Below, piece by piece: positions 33,895 through 36,657 of a DNA stretch of 64,000 nucleotides (positions are counted from its first letter, which is position 1; each line of letters opens with the position of its first letter). This DNA is from Candidatus Thermoflexus tengchongensis (GTDB lineage Bacteria > Chloroflexota > Anaerolineae > Thermoflexales > Thermoflexaceae): the NCBI GenBank assembly GCA_016842085.1, contig JAEVEX010000010.1:1-64000 (forward strand). The letters run 5' to 3'. The position numbers and the translations under genes were made by a program. The notes under the pieces are model-generated. The model saw nothing but the letters and a program-made list of their open reading frames with translations, made no database searches and had not been told where the DNA came from.

Positions 33895-34255
33895 CGACGG
33901 ACCTCCGGGAGAGGATGGCTGGATCTCCGCTCCGTTGCCAGCGCGTGCCGTCCATTCCGGTGGGATTCTCTGGAGAGGTTTGCGAAGTCCCTCCCCGAGG
34001 AGAAAAGCGACATAAGGGGCGGGCCACGAAGGCGGCCCGTCGCCCCCCAACCCTCAGGGGATCTCTCCATCTGTGTTATACTGAGACCGATTTCCCGCTG
34101 CAAGAGGCATAGCGCGATCTGCCATGGCATAGATGGATTCCGGTGCGGGGCATCCGCCGTTGAGCTCTCATTCGGGGAAGCAGAACGGCCCAGTCCCAGA
34201 AGCCCTCAGGAAGAGGCCAACGGCGTAACTTCTACTACAAGGAAAGGAGCGTCCG

Positions 34256-35470
34256 ATGCAAAAGATCTTTCTGGTGATGGCCGCATGGCTTCTGCTCGCG
34301 CTGGCGGCGTGCGCTCGCCCAACGCCGGCTCCCTCCCCGACGGCCTCGCCGTCGCCCAGCCCATCGCCGGAACCGGCTTCCGGGGCGACCCCGGCGGCGA
34401 CGCCGGATCTCCAGCGCATCCTTTTCCCGACGCCGGAGGACTGGAGCAAGGGGGCCGCGGAGGCACGGGTCACCTTCATCGAATGGGGCGATTTCCAGTG
34501 ACCCTACTGCGGGCAGCTTGCGCCGCTGCTCCGGCGTCTGGTAGACGCCTATCCCGATGAAGTTCGTGTGGTATACCGGCATTTCCCCCTGCGGACCATC
34601 CACGATAAGGCCATGATCACGGCGGAGGCGAGCGAGGCCGCCGGCGCCCAGGGGAAGTTCTGGGAGATGCACGACTGGCTTTTCGATCATCAGGCGGAAT
34701 GGGTCGCCAGCCCGAACATCACCGCGACCCTGATCTCGGCCGCCCAATCCCTGGGCCTGGATGTGGAGCGATTCCGCCGGGATCTGGAGGAGGGCCGTTA
34801 TCGAGCGAAGGTCGAAGCGGCCTATGCCGAAGCGGTGGCCCTGGGGCTCCCCGGCACGCCTTTCCTGCTGGTGAACGGCCGGCCATGGCCCCAGACCCTG
34901 AATTATCTGGAGTATGCCCATCTGGAGGCGATGGTGAAGCTGGCCCGGCTTCAGGATCGGCAATTCGAGGCCCCACCTCCGATGCGCATTGATCCATCCC
35001 GTCGCTACCGGGCCGTTCTGAAGACCGAGAAAGGGGATATCGTGATCGAGCTTTTCGCTGACCGGGCCCCTGTCACCGTCAACAATTTCGTCTTCCTGGC
35101 CCGAAACGGATGGTATAACGATATCACCTTCCATTATGTGATCACCGATGTGGTTGCCATCACCGGGGATCCCAGCGGGACGGGATTCGGCGGGCCTGGC
35201 TACACGATCCCGGATGAGATCACGGAGACCCTGACGTTCGACGCGCCGGGCATGGTCGGGATGCTGAACGCGGGCCCGAACACCAATGGGAGCCAGTTCT
35301 TCATCACCATGGCGCCGCTGCCTCAACTGAACGGCCGCTATACGCTCTTCGGACGTGTGGTGGAGGGATTGGAGGTGGTGCGTATGCTGCGTCCCCGGAA
35401 TCCAGAGGCGGAGCCCGGAGCGCCGCCTGGCGATCGACTGCTGGAGGTGATCATCGAAGAGCAGGAATAG
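34256..35470 (+). CDS. DsbA/thioredoxin-fold lipoprotein fused to cyclophilin-type PPIase; in-frame TGA (34499-34501) proposed as selenocysteine (UPYC)
   Basis: Lipobox LALAAC; VTFIEWGDFQ-(TGA)-PYCGQLAPLLRRLVDAYPDEVRVVYRHFPL continues in the same frame to cyclophilin GPNTNGSQFFI. Confidence 0.8.
34533..34549 (+). promoter_or_regulatory. Candidate bacterial SECIS stem-loop
   Basis: GGCGTCT-GGT-AGACGCC ~31 nt 3' of the in-frame TGA. Confidence 0.4.
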
Positions 35471-35475
35471 ACGGG

Positions 35476-36657
35476 ATGGAAGCTTTGCCCCCTGAGGTGG
35501 TTCCACCGGTGATCCAGGAGCGTGTCTCCCCCCGTGCTCCTTCCACAGGAGCGCTGTGGATGGGGGTTGGGGCACTGGCGGGAGGCCTGTTGTTCAGCCT
35601 GTGGCTGGGCCTGGCGGCCCTGGCGGCGATGCTCCGGCTTCCGATCCCCGCTCCCGGATTGGCGGTGCTCGGCCTGCTCGTCGGAGGCGGGCTTTTCCGG
35701 GAAGGGATGCGGATCGCGCGGGGCGAGCCCGATGCCCCCTGGCCTGGAGCGGAGACCCGGGTCCTGGGGCGGACTTTGCTATTCCTTTTGATTTTGATCG
35801 GATGTGGGGCGATCGCAGAAGCTTTCGGCTCCCGGCTGCCGGTTCTGATCCTGCCGTTCCACGTGGGAGTGGCCGCCCTGGGGCCCTTTCTGGGGTTCAA
35901 CCTCCTGCGCTGGCGCCTGCACGCCCCATGGTCCCGTCGCGCCGGGTGGTGGGCGCTGGGCCTGGGAAGCCTCCTGGTCCCGGCGCTGGCTCTGTTCCTG
36001 GAAAGCATCGCGGGGGCCGTGCTGGTTCTGGTCATGCTGGTGTTGCGCATCCTTCTGGAAGGTCCCGGATTTTTCACCCGGTGGTTTCCCCAGGGATTTT
36101 CGCCCGAGCGGCTCTCGCGGCTCCCCGAGGGCCTGATGGCGGATCCATGGCTCTGGATCGGGATCCTGATCGGAGCCGCTGTCCTGGTTCCCGCGATGGA
36201 GGAAGCCCTCAAGGCCCTTCCCGCTGTGCTGCGGATGCGGGATCCGGCCGCCTCCGGAGTTTCGCTGATCCTGTATGGCGCGATGGGGGGAGCGGGCTTT
36301 GCCCTGGCGGAGAACATGTTGAGCTGGCAACCCGGCATCCCATGGACGTTCACGGCGATCGGCCGCCTGGGCGCGACCGCGCTCCACGTCCTGAATGGGG
36401 GGATGATGGGGTGGGCCTGGAGCCGCGTGCGCCGGGGTCGCTTCCTCGAGGGAGCAGGGGCGTATCTTTTCGCCTGGCTTCTCCATGGCCTCTGGAACGC
36501 GGGGGCCATCGTCATGAGCAGCACGTTCATCCTCCCGCTCTCGATCGAAGCGCGGGCCCTGACGCTCGTCCCGGCGCTGATCGGAATGGGGGTGGCGTTG
36601 CTTCTGGTGATCGGAGGGCTGGGATGGACGCTGCCGATGCTGGAGGAGGCGGAATGA
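35476..36657 (+). CDS. PrsW-like intramembrane protease
   Basis: Multi-TM; PAMEEALKALPAVL (EExxK) and downstream membrane His motifs. Confidence 0.8.
   Translation: MEALPPEVVPPVIQERVSPRAPSTGALWMGVGALAGGLLFSLWLGLAALAAMLRLPIPAPGLAVLGLLVGGGLFREGMRIARGEPDAPWPGAETRVLGRTLLFLLILIGCGAIAEAFGSRLPVLILPFHVGVAALGPFLGFNLLRWRLHAPWSRRAGWWALGLGSLLVPALALFLESIAGAVLVLVMLVLRILLEGPGFFTRWFPQGFSPERLSRLPEGLMADPWLWIGILIGAAVLVPAMEEALKALPAVLRMRDPAASGVSLILYGAMGGAGFALAENMLSWQPGIPWTFTAIGRLGATALHVLNGGMMGWAWSRVRRGRFLEGAGAYLFAWLLHGLWNAGAIVMSSTFILPLSIEARALTLVPALIGMGVALLLVIGGLGWTLPMLEEAE

Follow-up and report, generated by a model that had tools for sequence, protein, structure and literature searches.

A conserved in-frame TGA in a Thermoflexus DsbA–cyclophilin lipoprotein gene is very likely read as selenocysteine

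The window analyzed here, a stretch of 64,000 nucleotides from Candidatus Thermoflexus tengchongensis, contains a long reading frame (34256–35470) interrupted by an in-frame TGA, and the question that this locus raises is whether the TGA encodes selenocysteine (Sec) or marks a damaged gene. An initial annotation, made from sequence alone, had read the frame as a lipoprotein with a lipobox, a Pro/Ser linker, a DsbA domain beginning VTFIEWGDFQ and a cyclophilin domain, had placed the TGA at the first position of CPYC with no other disruption downstream, and had favored recoding over a pseudogene, with a TGC-to-TGA mutation or a sequencing error as the main alternative. Translation and Pfam searches bear out the descriptive part: 81 codons are followed by the TGA, 322 further codons and a TAG stop (35468–35470), and a Pro/Ser-rich linker after the lipobox leads into VTFIEWGDFQ, the TGA and PYC. 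Alignment of 103 orthologs confirms both the position of the TGA in the motif and the absence of any other internal stop.

The encoded protein exceeds the Pfam cut-offs for PF13462, PF01323 (66.3 bits against 25.6) and PF00160 (Table 1). An AlphaFold2 model has a mean pLDDT of 86 and is confident outside residues 1–46; in the model, residue 82 directly precedes a helix (residues 83–98), like the nucleophile in DsbA, and Thr201–Pro202 is predicted to provide the expected cis-proline, the cis state being inferred. Among the Foldseek matches inspected, all were cyclophilins and none covered the DsbA half. The neighboring genes encode a threonine-synthase-type PLP enzyme, a PrsW-type protease, an unknown ORF and a WD40 protein, in an order kept in other members of the genus. 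Phage and plasmid collections returned merely partial, low-identity matches to one domain.

Table 1. Positions, in the window, of the predicted selenoprotein gene and its features.
Feature	Position	Strand	Details and basis
Coding sequence, predicted selenoprotein	34256..35470	+	404 aa with Sec82, TAG stop; translation and orthologs
Ribosome-binding site AGGAAAGGAG	34240..34249	+	sequence; spacing to start proper
Lipobox LAAC, residues 16–19, predicted lipoprotein anchor	34301..34312	+	sequence
DsbA/thioredoxin-fold domain, residues 61–211 (PF13462, PF01323)	34436..34888	+	Pfam; model pLDDT mostly >90
Sec codon TGA (residue 82), first position of UPYC	34499..34501	+	translation, ortholog alignment
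Resolving Cys85 (TGC) of UPYC	34508..34510	+	kept in 55/55 TGA orthologs
H1, 7-bp hairpin GGGCAGC[UUGCGCC]GCUGCUC, proposed spacer helix	34511..34531	+	folding, register comparison
H3, 7-bp hairpin GGCGUCU[GGU]AGACGCC, proposed SelB-binding bSECIS	34533..34549	+	folding, register comparison, covariation, synonymous shuffling
Pro202 of Thr-Pro motif, expected cis-proline of DsbA active site	34859..34861	+	invariant in alignment; cis state inferred
Cyclophilin-type domain, residues 255–379 (PF00160)	35018..35392	+	Pfam, Foldseek
Cyclophilin active-site segment YVITDVVAI, residues 294–302	35135..35161	+	CypA Arg55/Phe60/Gln63 equivalents are Tyr/Val/Ile

The 103 full-length orthologs, extracted from a search of 396 genomes of the class (Chloroflexota; Anaerolineae or Thermoflexia, according to the taxonomy followed), show directly that the TGA is conserved. 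The aligned column holds TGA (Sec) in 55 orthologs, Cys in 35, Ser in 5, Asp in 4, Thr in 2, and Ala and Glu in 1 each; the second, resolving Cys is kept in all 55 TGA forms, and no further in-frame stop precedes the gene end in any of the 103. A TGA shared at one alignment column by 55 of 103 orthologs is far beyond chance. Eight of the nine genomes of the genus Thermoflexus contain an ortholog, with TGA in all eight; the assembly of the ninth, which is 76% complete, lacks one. Constraint on the frame is likewise shown: comparison within the genus gives a dN/dS of 0.10 for the part preceding the TGA, 0.06 for what follows it in the DsbA domain and 0.09 for the cyclophilin domain, and values below 0.1 downstream of the TGA indicate that the part after the TGA is made and used. 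Because the orthologs have TGA or Cys and the downstream frame is constrained, we conclude that the TGA reflects neither sequencing error nor decay. The alternative that the initial annotation had ranked first therefore fails, the refutation that it had envisaged from orthologs is not borne out, and its preference for recoding is supported, with Sec insertion itself inferred.

The state of this codon has changed repeatedly. The three states at the TGA column require 14 changes on the tree and the Sec label requires 11, at least 8 of them forced by well-supported branches. One same-genus pair consists of a genome with TGA and selB (G303) and a genome with TGC and no selB (G277). A phylum-wide search at E ≤ 1e-90 gave no match outside the class in that sample. 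As separate observations, one clade (L017, L023, L024 and relatives, family f27) has Ser, Thr, Glu or Asp in place of the nucleophile, and in several of its members a Cys stands four residues ahead of that position (CDFQS/T), possibly a relocated active site; other families of the class (L237, L238, L240–L242, L244, L245) encode a DsbA with TGA in UxxC and no detected cyclophilin match, and the hairpins of these genes sit at other positions.

Sec decoding requires dedicated factors, whose absence from a complete genome the initial annotation had named as a refutation, and all of them were found. The source assembly (3.89 Mb, 95% complete) contains tRNA-Sec with a UCA anticodon, selA (564 bits, cut-off 268), selB (302 bits, cut-off 242) and selD (378 bits), the last with an in-frame TGA of its own. 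Every searched TGA genome that is at least 90% complete has selB, and the TGA genomes without selB are 67–89% complete.

Two observations concern the machinery genes themselves. SelD (L055; G000:C90:11133-12068) is a predicted selenoprotein here and in 15 related genomes; its gene has a hairpin about 32 nt past the TGA with the loop CGUGC or GGUCA, and some of these genes also have a hairpin before the TGA. A tyrosine-integrase ORF lies about 110 nt downstream of the tRNA-Sec gene (L033 1501-2823; G000:C72:12059-13381), and tRNA-Sec may possibly be the attachment site of an integrative element; no duplicated tRNA end was found in that contig.

The region directly after the TGA, which the initial annotation had suggested for a bacterial Sec insertion sequence (bSECIS), proved to be the right one and richer than proposed, with two hairpins, H1 and H3, of which the second has a canonical GGU-type loop. 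Folded by itself over 47–62 nt, the window sequence gives no significant hairpin, and comparison across orthologs is therefore needed. We compared three helices, H1, H2 and H3, by position after the TGA, with H3 defined as at least 5 bp in a fixed register (nt 37 and 41 form the closing pair, the first base after the TGA being 0; loop GGU in most). H3 is present in 39 of 55 TGA genes vs. 2 of 35 Cys genes, where synonymous shuffling predicts 5.3 and 0.5, respectively. Covariation is shown for its stem: both-side, compensatory changes occur at 5 of 8 pairs, 94% of cells are paired, and a one-base slide makes the pairing collapse. The sequences in the alignment used (A2) were selected for the presence of H3, and this selection inflates the paired percentage and, to a lesser degree, the covariation. 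At the 5' arm and loop of H3, all 36 distinct sequences use the codon CTG, and 28 of the 36 continue with GTA, a codon used 11 times vs. 184 other Val codons in neighboring ORFs. Across the genus, 2 of the 13 codons from 86 to 98, which span H1 and H3, vary synonymously, compared with 178 of the 276 other codons (Fisher p=0.0006), and both variable sites fall in the H1 loop.

In the window gene itself, H3 alone folds at −9.9 kcal/mol, and comparison with synonymous shuffles gives P of about 0.03 and 0.02 for the hairpins singly and 0.0006 jointly; the hairpins are not extreme singly, and the weight of the RNA evidence comes from the orthologs. No Rfam family matches 34001–35700. A search of the genome with a covariance model of H1 and H3 returned the selenoprotein gene itself at 65.7 bits and nothing else above 16.8 bits, and the layout is therefore specific to this gene in this genome. 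The results indicate that H3 is likely the SelB site, an inference made without binding data. As an observation apart, one Cys (TGC) ortholog (L091, genome G275) retains a 6-bp H3 and a 10-bp H1, likely a fossil signal after a recent change from Sec to Cys.

Published criteria for a bSECIS (model of Zhang and Gladyshev, restated in PMC13188914 Fig. 2) are a 3–9 nt loop with G in the first two positions and the pattern N1-G[G/U]-N-N2, a 4–16 bp stem, a distance of 16–37 nt from UGA to apical loop, and a minimum free energy of −7.5 kcal/mol or lower. H3 meets the loop and stem criterion, read either as UGGUA on a 6-bp stem (U-GGU-A fitting the pattern) or as GGU on 7 bp, and meets the energy limit. 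H3 differs from the consensus in two respects: its spacing lies at the edge of the limit (37 nt with U and A in the loop, 38 if they pair), and a second, conserved hairpin stands between UGA and the apical stem-loop.

That second hairpin, H1, always accompanies H3 and folds at −6.6 kcal/mol or lower in all 39 H3 genes; its stretch has a median of about −11 kcal/mol in H3 genes, compared with −4 and −6 kcal/mol in H2 and Cys genes, respectively. The register of H1 slides by several nucleotides, and there is no conservation of its loop (UUGCGCC, GGA, CACAU, AUUUC and others). Folding of H1 would leave a median of 10 unpaired nt between UGA and the base of H3, near the 11-nt spacer of E. coli fdhF. 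We infer, with the balance of evidence leaning this way, that H1 is a folded spacer; it remains possible that H1 is a mere pausing element or is itself the SelB site. Fourteen TGA genes without H1 and H3 have instead a single hairpin, H2, 23 nt after the TGA (closing pair 22/29, loop CGUGNU), with covariation of its own, and genome G293 contains two paralogs, one with each layout. Six extra TGA loci in a separate collection have H3 in five (with a clear H1 in four of these) and H2 in one, an independent repeat of both layouts, with the caveat that some may share species with rows already counted.

According to the bolder reading of these results, the Sec signal consists of two hairpins, in which H3 is placed about 37 nt after UGA and a conserved but register-free H1 cuts the effective distance to about 10 nt, a second lineage uses the nearer H2, and the signal serves a membrane-anchored Sec-DsbA-cyclophilin for which the searched literature has no earlier description. 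We consider this reading slightly more likely than not. No report of a two-hairpin Sec signal was found in the open-access literature searched.

The sequence-based criteria for a bacterial selenoprotein are fulfilled: a UGA that is conserved and aligned with Cys; SelA, SelB, SelC and SelD; and a bSECIS hairpin in TGA forms (H3 in 39 of 55, H2 in 14 others) vs. 2 of 35 Cys forms. We conclude that Sec recoding of the TGA is very likely and by far the best reading over mutation or decay, and that the locus very probably encodes a Sec-decoded DsbA–cyclophilin lipoprotein with a bSECIS directly downstream; selenium incorporation is inferred, as there are no 75Se or mass-spectrometry data.

Four other explanations can be set against this reading. 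The first accepts Sec insertion and holds that H1 is the SelB site and H3 auxiliary. In its favor, H1 has ordinary bSECIS spacing and is present in every H3 gene and, in strong form, in two TGA genes without H3 (G234 and G351); against it, the sliding register and unconserved loop of H1 contrast with the fixed register of H3 and its loop that fits the published pattern, and the genes that lack H1 carry H2, which has a GU loop. We consider this explanation unlikely. The second holds that UGA is regulated: termination would predominate and yield a short lipopeptide, and Sec would be inserted only in the presence of selenium. Such behavior is a general property of Sec codons, and the 81 residues made would amount to an anchored linker, but there is no specific evidence here that the short product has a function; this explanation is very unlikely, though not excluded. 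The third has UGA decoded as an amino acid other than Sec, by a Trp tRNA or a suppressor. Readthrough of UGA by other tRNAs does occur in bacteria, but the position alternates with Cys in homologs, the Sec machinery is complete, the hairpins are of bSECIS type, and TGA is a stop in neighboring genes; this explanation is all but excluded. Global reassignment of UGA was rejected outright, since TGA terminates 6 of 7 neighboring ORFs. The fourth, a TGC-to-TGA mutation or a sequencing or assembly error in an ordinary Cys DsbA, has in its favor only that Cys orthologs exist, one base away, and is refuted by the same TGA, with no other stop, in eight genomes of the genus and 47 further orthologs, by the low dN/dS downstream and by recoding hairpins specific to TGA genes.

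We compared the protein with known systems. DsbA-like UxxC selenoproteins are known (PMC1088965; PMC13188914 Table 1), and the Thermoflexus protein meets the criteria for DsbA-like selenoprotein form 1 (PF01323 above cut-off; UxxC, here UPYC), sharing the DsbA fold, Sec at the first position of CxxC and a bSECIS downstream; it differs in its cyclophilin fusion, which is not mentioned for that form in either paper. The best-scoring NCBIfam model, NF041057 (Rcas_1661 family thioredoxin-like (seleno)lipoprotein, classed as DsbG-like in PMC13188914), aligns over residues 24–209 at 79.2 bits, short of the cut-off of 190 (relatives reach 94.6 and 103.9), and with 247 positions is too short for the cyclophilin domain. 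Selenoprotein domain fusions in PMC2398784 concern other families, and no report of a cyclophilin fused to a Sec-DsbA was found in the open-access literature searched, which is weak evidence of absence.

The cyclophilin-type domain has the fold of prolyl isomerases of PF00160 (PPWD1, PPIL1, M. tuberculosis PpiA), with about 40% identity, and differs from them in being fused to DsbA, in being membrane-anchored and in lacking the equivalents of CypA Arg55, Phe60 and Gln63, so that the criterion for an active cyclophilin prolyl isomerase is not met. Loss of catalytic residues is shown: all eight Thermoflexus proteins have lost the Arg55 and Gln63 equivalents (Tyr or Gln, and Ile, respectively), whereas the Arg55 equivalent is present in 45 of the 47 Sec orthologs from outside the genus, and most non-Thermoflexus orthologs keep both Arg and Gln. 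The Thermoflexus domain is thus without catalytic residues and is likely only a binding module, binding being inferred.

The mechanism that we propose is that the ribosome would insert Sec at the UGA by means of tRNA-Sec, SelA, SelD and SelB, with H3 recruiting SelB and H1, as a folded spacer, leaving about 10 unpaired nt between UGA and the SelB hairpin. The product would be a selenoenzyme exported as a lipoprotein and acting as a thiol-disulfide oxidoreductase of the DsbA type; in its UPYC active site, the Sec82–Cys85 pair would catalyze disulfide exchange on client proteins outside the cytoplasm and the C-terminal cyclophilin-type domain would probably just bind clients. The same genome encodes a separate Cys-DsbA (CPVC) directly followed by VKOR, a pair that we infer should supply general disulfide formation; because this pair exists, a role as isomerase/reductase or specialized oxidase is more probable for the Sec enzyme. 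Reaction direction and substrates are inferred, and the assignment of this redox role could as readily prove wrong as right.

Since annotation reads TGA as a stop, genes of this kind are easily split or discarded. With more than 50 natural Sec genes, and dozens of versions that have Cys or Ser/Thr/Asp instead, the family provides a comparative system for the retention and loss of Sec. The layout with H1 and H3 suggests folding, in place of length, as a possible means of setting how far the SelB hairpin lies from UGA, and bSECIS searches with a strict 37-nt limit could miss such a layout. In this hot-spring thermophile, thiol-disulfide exchange and a cyclophilin fold would be joined on one lipid anchor.
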